The notes below the pieces were generated by a model. That model did no database searches, was not told the DNA's origin, and worked only from the letters and a program-made list of their open reading frames with translations. Below are positions 3,171 to 22,370 of a stretch of DNA of 45,885 nt, in pieces; position 1 is the first letter of the stretch; each line of letters starts with the position of its first letter. The stretch lies in contig JACPBO010000021.1 in NCBI GenBank assembly GCA_016180285.1, positions 1 to 45,885 on the forward strand, written 5' to 3'. Both the position numbers and the translations under genes were made by a program. This stretch comes from Candidatus Woesearchaeota archaeon (GTDB taxonomy: Archaea > Nanobdellota > Nanobdellia > Woesearchaeales > JACPBO01).

Positions 3171-4304
3171 TCAGCTGTACAGCTCCAGCACTCTTTTTAT
3201 CTTGTAAACAGTTTTCTCCCATGAGAATTTCTCAACTATTGTTCTCCTTGCTTCTTCGCCAAGCGCTGACCTCATTTCAGGATTCTTAATAAGAAACTCT
3301 AATTTTTTAGATAAGACATATGAATTCTGCTTTGGAAACAAAAGCCCGTTTTTTCCGTCCCGTATGTATTCTTTTACAACTCCCACCGGAGTGCATACAA
3401 CCGGCAGGCACGTTGACATCGCTTCCATTGTTGACAGCGAGCTTGTCTCTGTCAAAGAAGGCAGGACATAAATGTCCATTGCCTGCAGATATGGCACAAC
3501 ATTATTCACTGCTCCGCTTAAAATAATGCTTTTCCTTCTCCCGAATAATTCTTTCAATTCCTTTCTTCCTTCTCCTACAATAAACAGCCTTATATTCTGG
3601 TAAGTTCTTTCAAGCCTTATGAACGCCCTGTATAATGTAAGCAGGTCTTTTTCAAATCCAATTCTTCCGACAAATCCTATGACAATGCCGTCTTCAGCCA
3701 ATCCTAAATTCTTCTTGGATTGTTTTTTATTTGTTGACGGAATGAATTTATGGACATCAACTCCCAGCTGCACAACTGTCTTTTTTGTCTTTATTCCCTG
3801 CCATGTCAGCAATTCAGCTGTCTGCAAAGAAGGAACCATTATTATGTCGCATTTATTATAAAGGAACCATGCAATTATCTTGACAATTAAGTGCGTCCAC
3901 CATCCAATAAGCCTGTTTCTTGAAATGCTTTTGCTTACAAGCTCCCATTCTATTGAGTGCATGTATGCTATTGTTGTCTTTTTCAGCCTTTTTGCAATAA
4001 AAATAGTGGCTGCGCCGATTGGCCCTATTGTCTGCGTCCAGACTAAATCAGCGTCTTTTACAAACTGATTTATGCTCTTATATACAATTCTCGGCGGGTT
4101 ATAATCGCCAATCCTGAATTCATGCACTCTTAGCCTTATTACTTTCACGTTTTCTATTTCTTTGTACTCTCCTTTAAAATCAGGCGCAAGCACTGTAATG
4201 TCATAACTGTCCTTTATGGCCGGCAGTATCTCTGACAGAAATCTTGAAACACCATCCCACCTTGGCAAAAACGAGTCTGTTGCAATCAAAAGTTTCGGCT
4301 TCAT
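3171..4304 (-). CDS. GT4-family glycosyltransferase
   Basis: A 377-residue GT-B retaining glycosyltransferase, probably acting at the cytoplasmic membrane face on glycolipid or cell-surface glycan. The N-terminal Rossmann domain starts MKPKLLIATDSFLPRWDGVS with the usual glycine region. The C-terminal domain has VGRIGFEKD and the E-x7-E motif in TETSSLSTMEAM, followed by PVVCTPVGV. The start at 4304 is chosen because GGAAAGGT precedes it; the frame could extend 11 codons into the upstream gene but loses that site. It follows the PIG-L-like deacetylase by 4 nt, the pairing expected for GlcNAc-transfer then de-N-acetylation (as in phosphatidylinositol or mycothiol-type pathways). Sugar donor and acceptor are unknown. 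Confidence 0.92.
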   Translation of the reverse strand: MKPKLLIATDSFLPRWDGVSRFLSEILPAIKDSYDITVLAPDFKGEYKEIENVKVIRLRVHEFRIGDYNPPRIVYKSINQFVKDADLVWTQTIGPIGAATIFIAKRLKKTTIAYMHSIEWELVSKSISRNRLIGWWTHLIVKIIAWFLYNKCDIIMVPSLQTAELLTWQGIKTKKTVVQLGVDVHKFIPSTNKKQSKKNLGLAEDGIVIGFVGRIGFEKDLLTLYRAFIRLERTYQNIRLFIVGEGRKELKELFGRRKSIILSGAVNNVVPYLQAMDIYVLPSLTETSSLSTMEAMSTCLPVVCTPVGVVKEYIRDGKNGLLFPKQNSYVLSKKLEFLIKNPEMRSALGEEARRTIVEKFSWEKTVYKIKRVLELYS

Positions 4305-6393: not shown

Positions 6394-6497
6394 GGGACGG
6401 TAGCTCAGCCTGGGAGAGCACACGGCTGAAGACCGTGGAATCAGGAAGCAATGCTTTTTGATGCGGACTGTCACGGATTCAAATTCCGTCCGTCCCA
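6394..6497 (+). tRNA. tRNA-Phe(GAA) with a 30-nt intron in the variable loop
   Basis: Acceptor GGGACGG pairs with CCGTCCC and the discriminator is A at 6497; no CCA is encoded. D-arm GCTC/GAGC; anticodon arm CACGG-CTGAAGA-CCGTG gives anticodon GAA; T-arm ACGGA-TTCAAAT-TCCGT. Between nt 43 and T-stem nt 49 lie 35 nt instead of 5. Folding shows a bulge-helix-bulge: central helix CCGT (6433-6436)/GCGG (6463-6466), 5' bulge GGA, 3' bulge ACT, and an inner 10-bp hairpin (6440-6449 with 6453-6462). Cutting inside the bulges removes 6439-6468 and leaves variable loop GTGTC. A long variable arm is the alternative, but would be abnormal for tRNA-Phe. Confidence 0.88.
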
Positions 6498-12783: not shown

Positions 12784-12899
12784 TGCACCGGCCGGGATTT
12801 GAACCCGAATAAACGGCTCTCTTCTCATAAATGGAAGGCCGTTGTCATTTAATGCAACTGTTACAAGCGTAACCAGTTATGCCATTAGACCACCGGTGC
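12784..12899 (-). tRNA. tRNA-Gly(UCC) with two introns (D-loop and anticodon loop)
   Basis: Acceptor GCACCGG/CCGGTGC, discriminator A, no encoded CCA; T-arm TCGGG-TTCAAAT-CCCGG. Intron 1 (12849-12880, 32 nt) lies between about nt 20 and 21. The D-stem GTC/GAC and helix TAATG/CATTA flank 3-nt bulges, and the intron carries a hairpin (GTTAC/GTAAC). Removing it restores D-arm GTC-TAATGGCAT-GAC. Intron 2 (12819-12831, 13 nt) is at 37/38: anticodon stem ACGGC/GCCGT, 3' bulge AGA, central helix CTTC/GAAG, 5' bulge CAT. It leaves loop CTTCCAA with anticodon UCC. The mature RNA is 71 nt. Junction 1 could shift by one base. Confidence 0.87.
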
Positions 12900-19423: not shown

Positions 19424-19462
19424 AAATTAAAAGAAAAAAAAGAAAAAAGGTAAAACCTTTTT
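19424..19462 (-). terminator. Intrinsic-type terminator of the S-layer gene
   Basis: On the minus strand an 8-bp hairpin (19444-19462, AAAAAGGT paired with ACCTTTTT) overlaps the stop codon. It is followed by a T-rich tract, a strong terminator for a highly expressed gene. Confidence 0.7.
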
Positions 19463-21416
19463 ATTGCGCAGCTGCTACAGTTATGTCTGTCAAGCTTGTG
19501 CCGGTTACAGTTACTTCTGCTCCCTTCATGCTTGACGCATACTTGCTCCACTGCGAAGCTACTCTGCTGGCTCTCCTTGTGTCTTCAGCATTGTATCCAG
19601 CAACTAGCATTGCAACTTTGTCTGCATTACTATACAGCTTTACCATTGCTTTGCCTTCTGTGAAATCTTTGCCGCATGGGCTCGGACTTCCCATTATTGC
19701 TGCTGCTGCTGTGTTTGCGCAAGGTCCGCCTACAATTATGGCGTTCTGAGCTTTGATGTCAGCAACTTCGCTGTCTAGCTTGGCAGTTCCAACATTCCAA
19801 ACATTGACTGTCTGTGTCTTTGTTCCGCCAGTTGTGGTTGTTGTTGCTGTTGCAGGTCCAAAGTACACATCATAGCTTGCAGCTGCAGACGGATAATACA
19901 AGTTTATCTTGTTGCTTCCGCTTGAGCTGGTGTAGTCCATATACGTTCCGTACTTGGATACTCCTTTGCTATCGTATGTGTTCGAGACACTCGTCATTGT
20001 AGCACCGCCACCTAATGGTGAGGAAAGTATTGTATCCCACTGCGCTGAACTCGACAGATACGTTACTGACGTATTAATAGTCATATTACCTAATGTTTCT
20101 TGAACGTTGTTCGTGTAGGTGCCGTCGTTGTACGCTGTCTCTTCTGTGAAGTTGACTATGTTGCCATTAGATGCATTACCTCCTGTCAAAGGCAAGTCAA
20201 TCCTCATTCCTCCTTTCGTAGTAATTTTGTTTGTCAATCCTGTAACGTTCAGCCCGGTTAGTGTTGCGTTGTTTTCCATAGTGAATGTATAGACGTTTCC
20301 GTCATATCTCATTTCACCAGTTAGATCAGTTCCACCGCTTTCATTATAGCTCCACTCAGTTGTCTCTCCGCCAGATGCAGCTTCCTTAACCTTGATTTTA
20401 TTCGGGTTTGTGCTGATTTTCTTCAACTGCAGTATGTGCGAATAACCATTGGTGTCAATAATGAAGTAGTCGTTTTCTCTTATTGTACCGGATCTTGCTG
20501 TAAGTGCAGGACCGCCAGTTGTGTTAGCTCCGTTGTGTGTAATCAAAGCATTGCCATCAACTGCAAGTGAAGTTCCTCGATTTACATCATCGCTTGTGTT
20601 GATTACATTCAATGCATAACTCTGCCCAGCTTTGTTGGTGAACTCAAGCTTTACCTTTTGCTCTCCGCTTGGGTAGATCTTTATAACATCTCTTGACGAA
20701 GCCTTCAAGTCAGGTATAATGCCTGTGAATGACATCTTCAGCAATCCAAATACTGGCTCTGTCAAAGAGTCTCCAACTTTCAGGTATTTCCTGTCCACAT
20801 CAAAGCTGTACGGCTTTATATCAATCCTCAATGTTGACAATAGTGTTTTTCCGCTTGTCATTGAGCAAGACATATCAACCAATGTACCGCTGATGCTTGT
20901 TGAAGCTAACTTCACTTCATTTGCACTGATCAACGTCATCTTGTCTGTTCCAATGAACAATCTTACAGCACCGCTTGTTACTGGTGTTGTATAAGCAAAT
21001 ATGTCTCTGACATATGTTCTTATTCCGCCTAGCACAACAGTGTCGCCTGCTGATACTGAAGCAGATTCTCCATTGACCTTGATTGTTGCAGTTGCTGTTG
21101 TTGTTCCTGTGTTAACACCAGTTACTTCAACTGGAATGTCTTTTCCGCCAACTGTTACAGTTATAGCTTCTCCTGCGGTGAATATCTGGTCTTTTCCTCC
21201 ACCATACAGCACAAGCCCGTTTGTTGTATCAGAGCAGTTCAATTCTCCGCCTGTTCCACCAATGCCTGAGCTAGCCCCAGATGCAACTGTGCCAGAGAAT
21301 GTGTACTCTTTGCCCATTATTGTCAGCAGCTTGTTTCTTAATCTTTGTGTGTTGACTGCTGTTGGGAAGCTGACTTCATAAGAGAAGTTAGCTGTGCTCG
21401 GCAGATCAACATACAC
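19461..21416 (-). CDS. S-layer protein, main and C-terminal part (downstream of a frameshift)
   Basis: A 651-residue reading frame of the cell-surface S-layer lattice protein. It is Thr/Ser/Gly-rich and beta-rich, with many NxS/T sites for N-glycosylation. The C-terminal 100 residues (NAIIVGGPCANTAAAAIMG, then a second Cys in SPCGKDF, then KVAMLVAGYNAEDTRRAS) match the archaeal S_layer_C domain. No secretion signal is present because the N-terminus lies in the frame 21436-21873. The frame continues back to 21440 as PDSLNDPV before meeting stops, and the listed start is only the first GTG. The intact protein would be about 803 residues. It ends at a strong terminator. Confidence 0.88.
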   Translation of the reverse strand: MYVDLPSTANFSYEVSFPTAVNTQRLRNKLLTIMGKEYTFSGTVASGASSGIGGTGGELNCSDTTNGLVLYGGGKDQIFTAGEAITVTVGGKDIPVEVTGVNTGTTTATATIKVNGESASVSAGDTVVLGGIRTYVRDIFAYTTPVTSGAVRLFIGTDKMTLISANEVKLASTSISGTLVDMSCSMTSGKTLLSTLRIDIKPYSFDVDRKYLKVGDSLTEPVFGLLKMSFTGIIPDLKASSRDVIKIYPSGEQKVKLEFTNKAGQSYALNVINTSDDVNRGTSLAVDGNALITHNGANTTGGPALTARSGTIRENDYFIIDTNGYSHILQLKKISTNPNKIKVKEAASGGETTEWSYNESGGTDLTGEMRYDGNVYTFTMENNATLTGLNVTGLTNKITTKGGMRIDLPLTGGNASNGNIVNFTEETAYNDGTYTNNVQETLGNMTINTSVTYLSSSAQWDTILSSPLGGGATMTSVSNTYDSKGVSKYGTYMDYTSSSGSNKINLYYPSAAASYDVYFGPATATTTTTGGTKTQTVNVWNVGTAKLDSEVADIKAQNAIIVGGPCANTAAAAIMGSPSPCGKDFTEGKAMVKLYSNADKVAMLVAGYNAEDTRRASRVASQWSKYASSMKGAEVTVTGTSLTDITVAAAQ

Positions 21417-21435: not shown

Positions 21436-21447
21436 TCAGGTTATTAT
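21436..21447 (-). other. Probable single-base frameshift inside the S-layer gene
   Basis: The minus strand reads ATA ATA ACC TGA. Skipping one A after ATA ATA gives CCT GAC AGC and runs into the long downstream frame, joining YKQII to PDSLNDPVVYVDLP. This could be a sequencing error in the AATAATAA run, a real mutation, or a +1 slippage site. The two halves are otherwise complementary. Confidence 0.75.
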
Positions 21448-21873
21448 TTGCTTGTATGTGAACTCTGTGCCGTCTTCATCAGTTATTTTGCCGTCTTTCA
21501 AGAAAGTCGCCAATTCAGTTGATGTAAGAGACACTTTTGTTGTGTTCATAGAATCTCCAAAATACAACTTCTGTCCAGATGTTTCTACCTTTGCACCACC
21601 TTCCAAAACTGTTGTTGTTGCTCCTGTTGTTGTTGTTGTAACAGATGCTGCTTGCAATGCTGTTGCAATGTCAATAGCACCTATTATGTCTTCTGATGCT
21701 GCAGCTTTGCCAACTACAAGTACGGCATTGAACTTTCCATCAGTCCCAATAAACAATGGGCTCGGGTACTGACTCAAGTCAGCTGCTGCTACTGCGCCTA
21801 GGATTGTAGCGCCTAACATTGCTGCGCCTGTTCCTATTGCAGCGATCCTCTTTATTGCTTTTTTCACGTTCAT
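21436..21873 (-). CDS. S-layer protein, N-terminal part with signal peptide
   Basis: A 145-residue frame: a basic N-terminus (MNVKKAIKRIAAIGTG), a hydrophobic signal sequence (AAMLGATILGAVAAADL) and then YPSPLFIGTDGKFNAVLVVG and SEDIIGAIDIATAL, the archaeal S_layer_N pattern. It ends at a TGA at the frameshift. The ATG at 21873 has a strong Shine-Dalgarno (GGAGGTG) presented in a hairpin loop, and the promoter lies about 130 nt upstream, so the leader is about 100 nt, unlike most genes in the window. As it stands only a short exported peptide would be made. Confidence 0.85.
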   Translation of the reverse strand: MNVKKAIKRIAAIGTGAAMLGATILGAVAAADLSQYPSPLFIGTDGKFNAVLVVGKAAASEDIIGAIDIATALQAASVTTTTTGATTTVLEGGAKVETSGQKLYFGDSMNTTKVSLTSTELATFLKDGKITDEDGTEFTYKQIIT

Positions 21874-22016: not shown

Positions 22017-22166
22017 TTATAAGGCCTATCTAGCCAAAATTTTAAGTTTTCAGATAGTTGTTACCTACAAATAGAGAATCTAAAAAATATCTAAAAAACG
22101 TCGTTTTCAACTCCATTTTAGACCTCAGACAGTACCGATATTATGTATATCAGTATACAAAAAATA

Positions 22167-22324
22167 TGCGGAGTGCAGGACTTTCAGTTGCTCTGCAACA
22201 TTCGAACCTGCGTAGGGACTGACCCAATAGGTGTCTTAATATCATTGGAAGTTGCTTCCTCATTACACCTAAGCTTGGACAATCTTTCGATCTCTATCCC
22301 GTTTGGCCACTCCGGCAACTCCGC
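22167..22324 (-). tRNA. tRNA-Leu(UAG) with three introns (30/31, 37/38, 59/60)
   Basis: Acceptor GCGGAGT/ACTCCGC, discriminator A, no CCA. Intron A, 22275-22293 (19 nt), is in the anticodon stem: central helix GGAT/GTCC, bulges AGA and AAG. Intron B, 22233-22267 (35 nt), is at the canonical 37/38: stem ATAGG/CCTAT, central helix CTTA/TAAG, bulges GGT and ACA. Intron C, 22181-22200 (20 nt), is in the T-loop: T-stem GCAGG/CCTGC, central helix TTCG/TGAA, bulges AAT and AGT, inner hairpin GTTGC/GCAAC. Splicing all three leaves an 84-nt class II tRNA with D-arm CCG/CGG, anticodon loop CTTAGGA, T-loop TTCGAAT and a 15-nt variable arm. Confidence 0.88.
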
Positions 22325-22370
22325 ATAAGCAATCAGAAATCGCGCTATTATATATATTTAACGCAAAAAT

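Follow-up and report, generated by a model that had tools for sequence, protein, structure and literature searches.

A tRNA-Leu(UAG) gene with three introns in a Woesearchaeon, the guide-like element of its 37/38 intron and a single loop-free gene for the splicing endonuclease

The tRNA-Leu(UAG) gene and its relatives

The window, which is the whole stretch of 45,885 nt analysed here, belongs to a Woesearchaeal genome of 1.33 Mb that is 96% complete. The region of the predicted gene was analysed with an intron-aware finder, which enumerates bulge-helix-bulge (BHB) junctions, splices at up to three of them and scores the resulting cloverleaf. On the minus strand, at 22324-22167, a 158-nt tRNA-Leu(UAG) gene was found, interrupted by three introns at positions 30/31 (19 nt), 37/38 (35 nt) and 59/60 (20 nt) (Table 1). 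The spliced product is an 84-nt class II cloverleaf with the anticodon UAG and with acceptor, D, anticodon and T stems of 7, 3, 5 and 5 bp, respectively. Each of the three junctions is built of a 4-bp central helix and two 3-nt bulges, with the cut placed after the second bulge nucleotide. Both marks of a BHB intron gene are present, namely the junction geometry and a full cloverleaf with the conserved tRNA bases. The junction of intron 1 is of the HBh' type, with the central helix GGAU/GUCC, the inner helix GAUC/GAUU and an outer helix of 1 bp. Intron 3 forms a full hBHBh' structure, in which the outer and inner helices have 5 bp each.

Table 1. Coordinates of the features of the tRNA-Leu(UAG) locus (positions in the window) and of the EndA gene (G000, the same genome; C2, another of its contigs)
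Feature	Position	Strand	Basis
TATA-like box TAAATATATATAATA, ~22-36 nt upstream of the gene	22346..22360	-	by eye
Exon 1: acceptor 5' strand, D arm, anticodon-stem 27-30, 31 nt	22294..22324	-	finder; identical in the congener G001
Intron 1 at 30/31, 19 nt, AGATCGAAAGATTGTCCAA	22275..22293	-	finder, fold, covariation in 28 genomes
Exon 2: G31 CUUAGG, anticodon UAG at 34-36	22268..22274	-	finder
Intron 2 at 37/38, 35 nt, BHB central helix CUUA/UAAG	22233..22267	-	finder
Guide-like stretch AGGUGU (A35 G36 G37 / U G U), spanning the exon 2/intron 2 junction	22265..22270	-	
D'-like box AUGA, invariant GA, kink-turn-like motif	22260..22263	-	
Hairpin GGAAG-CAA-CUUCC between the D'-like and C'-like boxes	22247..22259	-	
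C'-like box AAUGA (3-nt bulge + GA)	22242..22246	-	
Predicted target stretch AC/ACCU; N+5 partner C39 at 22231	22229..22234	-	
Exon 3: A38, anticodon-stem 3' strand, variable arm, T stem 5' strand, T loop through 59	22201..22232	-	finder
Intron 3 at 59/60 (T loop), 20 nt, TGTTGCAGAGCAACTGAAAG	22181..22200	-	finder, fold
Exon 4: U60, T stem 3' strand, acceptor 3' strand, A73	22167..22180	-	finder
U6 run, terminator-like, just 3' of the gene	22159..22164	-	by eye
EndA	G000:C2 75790-76050 + adjoining N-terminal domain (L063:1267-1848)	-	PF01974, PF02778 searches

The original prediction had read all three junctions from the bare sequence, together with the class II product of 84 nt and the weakness of the outer helix at the first junction, and the finder returned the same gene as its only solution in the region; no other combination of junctions gave a cloverleaf. 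The score of 46.7 was not reached by any of 400 dinucleotide shuffles of the 191-nt region (maximum 28.1) or by any of 200 shuffles restricted to the introns (maximum 22.5). Folding of each junction had been proposed earlier as a check. The minimum-energy fold of the unspliced 158-nt RNA (z = -3.5 against shuffles) shows the acceptor stem, the T stem, the intron-3 hairpin and the central helix of intron 1 with a 3-nt bulge. The fold of the spliced tRNA is likewise better than that of shuffles (z = -3.1), and its minimum-energy form is different from the full cloverleaf. The suspicion that a standard scan could miss the gene was justified: ARAGORN reported no tRNA in the whole window, and the Rfam tRNA model failed to match the gene whether the window, a stretch of 301 nt or the whole genome (up to E = 10) was searched.

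An intact tRNA-Leu(UAG) elsewhere, with the present copy unexpressed, had been named as evidence that would speak against the prediction. A genome-wide nucleotide search with the gene returned only itself and parts of other leucine tRNAs, among them tRNA-Leu(CAA) on contig C2 and tRNA-Leu(GAG) on C5, so the window gene is the only tRNA-Leu(UAG) found in its genome by this search. In the congener G001, all 84 mature nucleotides are identical and the differences are confined to introns 1 and 2. Those in intron 1 keep the pairing, as judged by eye: a G.U pair of the inner helix has become G-C, and a U.G pair of the central helix has become U-A. The TATA-like box is also retained in G001 despite a diverged spacer.

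Among other relatives, tRNA-Leu(UAG) carries either the 37/38 intron alone or the 30/31 and 37/38 introns together, and one gene from another family (L042 of G013) is interrupted at the identical three positions. Intronless genes of the same design occur in further families (L048, L054, L058, L059). The finder fails or mis-splices at nine loci (L034, L039, L041, L043, L045, L047, L055, L057 and L060), and some of the introns at these loci were therefore read by eye. Covariation among the relatives was seen for introns 1 and 2. With a search pattern that left the covarying base free, 28 of 353 genomes were found to have the 30/31 intron; at position 28, the central pair takes the forms C-G (9 genomes), U-G (14) and U-A (5) and is never unpaired. 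The sequence of its inner hairpin varies while the pairing is kept, with a mean of 3.7 bp compared with 0.7 bp in shuffled sequences (0 of 2,000 as high).

A guide-like element in the 37/38 introns of leucine tRNAs

The 37/38 intron contains an element that was not part of the original prediction. The guide-like stretch AGGUGU is complementary to AC/ACCU, which lies across the 3' junction of intron 2. In many families, the 37/38 intron of tRNA-Leu(UAG) follows the consensus GGUGU - 1 nt - ANGA - hairpin - NRUGA - ~6 nt - GAC/ACC. This pattern was present in 17 of 26 tested introns, compared with 12 of 52,000 after shuffling. The shortest introns (17-20 nt) and some others lack the element. Variants that keep the helix were observed, namely GGUAU with AUACC (L055, and by eye L056 and L057) and GGUAA with UUACC (L044). 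In the alignment of the guide helix, 98.6% of the cells pair, 12 cells are changed on both sides, the compensatory pairs GC/AU and UA/AU occur, and the covariation score was matched by none of 500 shuffles. The alignment also shows that GA is invariant in both boxes and that a 3-nt bulge follows a covarying stem. In these features, the boxes, bulge and stem resemble a D'/C'-type kink turn.

The position of the target was derived with the N+5 rule, according to which the nucleotide five upstream of the box faces the methylated nucleotide. The spacing from guide to box is constant across the 37/38 introns. In tRNA-Leu(UAG), N+5 faces C39 uniquely in 14 of the 18 parsed introns, with two more tied, and 5.56 of 6 pairs are formed on average, in a set picked partly by the pattern. 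The 37/38 intron of tRNA-Leu(CAA) has the same layout, and its guide UUGAGU faces C34 uniquely in 5 of 7 parsed introns (one more tied) with 5.0 of 6 pairs, in a set that was not picked by target. The tRNA-Leu(CAA) gene of the present genome (L062; G000:C2, ~82082-82256, minus strand) has 30/31 and 37/38 introns. Its element, UUGAGUG-UUGA-hairpin-CGAUGA, points at C34, and the layout is kept in the Leu(CAA) introns of most relatives. In Pyrococcus tRNA-Leu(CAA), the first anticodon position (C34) is the target of a guide for ribose methylation (PMC7994747).

The element lacks canonical boxes. The D'-like box is ANGA and not CUGA, the C'-like box is NRTGA followed by Y/A and not RUGAUGA, and no terminal C/D motif was seen by eye in the 35-nt intron or in its relatives. 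A search of Rfam with intron 2 alone gave no match above chance. With ANGA in place of CUGA and no visible terminal C/D motif, the element was not assigned to the box C/D RNAs, though it may act in a similar way. Of the six guide bases in the window gene, three (A35, G36 and G37) belong to the exon, and therefore splicing takes this guide apart. The guide helix excludes the BHB of intron 2, so that methylation, if real, would precede the splicing of intron 2.

The closest known counterpart is the intron of Haloferax tRNA-Trp, a box C/D guide for C34 and U39 (PMC7994747, PMC4090602). Like the intron of the H. volcanii gene, the leucine introns lie at 37/38 and place a guide-like stretch beside a kink-turn-like D'/C' motif, and the same positions are faced by N+5, 39 in Leu(UAG) and 34 in Leu(CAA). 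They differ from it in residing in leucine tRNAs, in having a single kink-turn-like motif and a length that can be as low as 35 nt, in the D'-like box ANGA and, for the window gene, in a guide that is partly exonic. Guides nested in introns, like three-intron tRNAs, are already known kinds; a prior report of guide-like introns in two leucine tRNAs was not found in the open-access literature. The intron of tRNA-Trp has been presented as the only one in archaeal tRNAs to guide the modification of the tRNA in which it lies. If the leucine elements act as guides, they would widen this class by two isoacceptors, would give a reason for 37/38 introns to persist and would offer a minimal system for guides that compete with splicing.

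Splicing enzymes and the intron set of the order

The EndA gene encodes an alpha-type protein of 194 aa in which the domains PF02778 and PF01974 each occur once. The proteins most similar to it belong mostly to Candidatus Woesearchaeota. EndA is a single gene in this genome and in the 100%-complete congener G001; no second EndA gene was found in either with PF01974, PF02778 or a lineage profile at E <= 10. In the PDB, the lineage profile recovers the beta chain of N. equitans (3iey_B, 1.4e-16), and the crenarchaeal beta chains of 3p1z, 3ajv and 2zyz were not among its matches, so a beta subunit of the crenarchaeal type could be missed. EndA is present in 134 of 145 sampled Woesearchaeales genomes, nearly always as a single gene, and where there are two, both copies look catalytic. 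The genome also contains one gene for RtcB.

The protein aligns end to end with the subunit of the Methanocaldococcus jannaschii homotetramer (alpha4, PDB 1a79), with which it shares the single gene, the full-length two-domain alpha architecture, the catalytic Tyr/His/Lys and the absence of an inserted loop. The catalytic residues Y130/H140/K171 are present in 48 of 48 Pfam-selected homologues. At the site of the crenarchaeal loop (CSL, 15-18 residues near the active site), 127 of 128 homologues have 8-10 residues; S. tokodaii has 19 there, as opposed to the 8 of M. jannaschii. The enzyme is accordingly not of the (alpha-beta)2 type with a CSL. Its 194 aa also differ from the epsilon2 (ARMAN type) architecture, a fused alphaN-alpha-betaC of ~395 aa. 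Both the CSL and the ASL loop are missing from the EndA of this genome and of nearly every sampled genome of the order. Like the M. jannaschii subunit, the protein retains an acidic C-terminal loop, which is degenerate in the catalytic chains of N. equitans and Sulfolobus. In the M. jannaschii structure, this loop docks the tetramer. A single alpha4-like gene is what was found, with the proviso that a crenarchaeal-type beta could escape the profile, and EndA probably forms a homotetramer.

The best PDB match is the catalytic subunit of N. equitans, whose enzyme is (alpha-beta)2 (PDB 3iey). The residues K/R142, W143, K162 and N163 are nearly invariant in the Woesearchaeal lineage and are common to N. 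equitans (K142, W143, K162, N163), and they are not found in M. jannaschii or S. tokodaii; the conservation of K162/N163 was counted on Pfam-selected proteins only, since the peptide AKNRVA had itself served as pattern in the contig search. The N. equitans enzyme differs in having a second structural subunit, none of which was found here, and a shortened C-terminal loop. Lying near the catalytic residues in sequence, K162-N163 and K/R142-W143 are candidate determinants of relaxed specificity.

Relaxed junctions are frequent in this genome, as opposed to that of M. jannaschii. Those of the HBh' type occur at 30/31 of tRNA-Leu(UAG), at 44/45 of tRNA-Phe and in D loops (D-loop introns were seen in Asn, Gly and Gln tRNAs), and an hBH junction occurs in the 13-nt T-loop intron of tRNA-Asp. 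Further 59/60 introns were found in Asp(GUC), Ala(GGC), Ala(CGC), Cys(GCA) and Ile(UAU), in a census that was drawn from stretches around tRNA matches and is incomplete. A pattern for the 59/60 intron gave 279 matches in 140 Woesearchaeales genomes and 64 for the reversed control. The other orders of the class, represented by 124 genomes, gave 41 and 39, counted by hand. The 59/60 introns are thus enriched in Woesearchaeales and not in the sister orders. In a spot-check of three genomes (G119, G019 and G036), 10 of 17 matches were solvable, and all 10 were tRNAs interrupted at 59/60, including Pro, Ala, Glu, Val, Ser, Gly and Asp.

The original prediction had called for a heteromeric or epsilon-type EndA. 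Its reading of a real, single-copy, three-intron tRNA that scans miss stood up to the searches, whereas this part did not: the inference is unsupported, because there is a single loop-free gene of the alpha type and a second subunit was not detected. In the accepted picture, intron-riddled tRNA genes arise where EndA has gained a second subunit or a special loop. Relaxed BHB introns beside a loop-free, alpha-only EndA are a mismatch that we consider of interest in its own right. Efficient cutting of relaxed BHB has been reported only for (alpha-beta)2 and epsilon2 enzymes (PMC6379350), and alpha4 EndA, which occurs in a related nanoarchaeon, cuts only the canonical BHB (PMC4033280). This view counts against the handling of the present intron set by a loop-free alpha-only enzyme.

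The three-intron gene itself can be compared with tRNA-Pro(UGG) of Pyrobaculum islandicum, a member of the Thermoproteales, in which introns lie at 25/26, 37/38 and 56/57 (PMC4090602). As in the three-intron genes of Thermoproteales, three short BHB introns occupy canonical and non-canonical sites, and standard scans have difficulty with them. The tRNA and the positions are different from those of the P. islandicum gene, and the Woesearchaeal host has one alpha-type EndA gene without an inserted loop, unlike Thermoproteales, which have a heteromeric EndA with the crenarchaeal loop.

Proposed maturation pathway, alternatives and further observations

Taking the gene structure, its conservation and covariation, and the single EndA and RtcB genes as observed, we infer from sequence a likely course of cleavage, ligation, splicing order, EndA assembly and methylation for a working, single-copy tRNA-Leu(UAG). 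The 158-nt precursor would be transcribed from the TATA-like box. All three BHB introns would be cut by the single loop-free alpha-type EndA, probably a homotetramer. Intron 1 would probably be removed before intron 2, because it splits the anticodon stem that is needed for the full outer helix of intron 2; intron 3 would fold and leave independently. On the precursor, before splicing, the intron-2 element most likely recruits L7Ae, Nop5 and fibrillarin for 2'-O-methylation of C39. The exons would be joined by the RtcB-family protein.

Three other readings of the locus were weighed against this pathway. Loss of function is very improbable: the three introns and the 1-bp outer helix of junction 1 could be signs of decay in a relic that is neither spliced nor used any more, but no other tRNA-Leu(UAG) was found in the genome, the exons of the congener are identical while the introns differ, the introns covary in other families, and the TATA-like box and the U run are retained. 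It is unlikely, though clearly less so, that the same gene and introns are served by a heteromeric EndA with a highly diverged beta subunit. The closest PDB match, the catalytic subunit of N. equitans, comes from an alpha-beta enzyme and points in that direction, as does the failure of the lineage profile to recover the crenarchaeal beta chains of 3p1z, 3ajv and 2zyz, which leaves room for a beta of that type. Yet the profile does find 3iey_B, while at E <= 10 it yields only the one EndA gene in each of two near-complete genomes, the Woesearchaeal alpha retains the acidic C-terminal loop of the M. jannaschii homotetramer, and genomes with two EndA genes carry two catalytic-looking copies.

The alternative that deserves the most weight concerns intron 2. 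Its helix with the 3' junction might be a folding or splicing-control element, for example a kink turn bound by L7Ae, and not a methylation guide. We regard this as possible but the less favoured reading. The ANGA box in place of CUGA and the missing terminal C/D motif fit such a role, and a guide helix that excludes the BHB could time splicing. The constant distance between guide and box argues for a guide, and so does the shift of N+5 from C39 in Leu(UAG) to C34 in Leu(CAA) together with the partner tRNA, C34 being the Pyrococcus target (PMC7994747).

Combining the guide with the EndA, a broader claim can be put forward tentatively, as one that falls a little short of an even call. According to it, the 37/38 introns of Woesearchaeal leucine tRNAs would be minimal, new intron-encoded methylation guides, down to 35 nt in length, with a single kink turn and with exon sequence forming part of the guide, and at the same time an alpha-only EndA without CSL or ASL would have acquired relaxed-BHB specificity, perhaps via K162-N163 and K/R142-W143, breaking the rule of co-evolution between loops and introns. 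Woesearchaeales appear to combine intron-rich tRNAs with a plain one-gene EndA, which makes the co-evolution model directly testable with one recombinant protein. No earlier report of order-wide intron-rich tRNAs together with a loop-free alpha-only EndA was found in the open-access literature.

Spread of introns between tRNA genes has been reported in Thermoproteales. In Woesearchaeales, several 59/60 introns of different tRNAs are alike within one genome (L267-L270 in G119, L271-L278 in G019 and L279-L281 in G036). This resemblance suggests that T-loop introns have spread between tRNA genes within Woesearchaeal genomes.

A second three-intron gene is present in the same genome as the window. 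It encodes tRNA-Ile(UAU) (L254; G000:C26, ~3351-3534), with introns of 27 nt at 29/30, 45 nt at 37/38 and 37 nt at 59/60. On C35 (L262), tRNA-Ala(CGC) with a T-loop intron of 105 nt adjoins tRNA-Ala(GGC) with one of 29 nt. Two more interrupted tRNAs lie in the window. The tRNA-Phe(GAA) gene (6394-6497, plus strand) has a 30-nt HBh' intron at 44/45 (6439-6468), and tRNA-Gly(UCC) (12784-12899, minus strand) is interrupted in the D loop (32 nt, HBh') and at 37/38 (13 nt). The latter gene was missed by ARAGORN and fell under the Rfam cut-off. Three-intron-type tRNAs in general slip past common annotation tools.

Serine-like class II tRNAs with a long variable arm, mostly a GCCG start and G73 were observed with the anticodons GAA, UAU, GAU and GAG. 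They were seen on C41 (L260) and C4 (L257) of the same genome, and in G001 (L284, L285), G036 (L279, L280), G006 (L304) and G029 (L290). Usually they have a 59/60 intron; they are kept in the congener and present in several families. These loci are either V-arm tRNAs with unexpected anticodons or mis-parsed.

Elsewhere in the window, on the minus strand, a gene for a type II/IV secretion ATPase (PF00437; 8684-12481) contains an intein with a LAGLIDADG endonuclease inside. Two adjacent ORFs, at 19461-21416 and 21436-21873 on the same strand, both match S-layer families (PF05124; TIGR01564), as if one gene had been split or frame-shifted.
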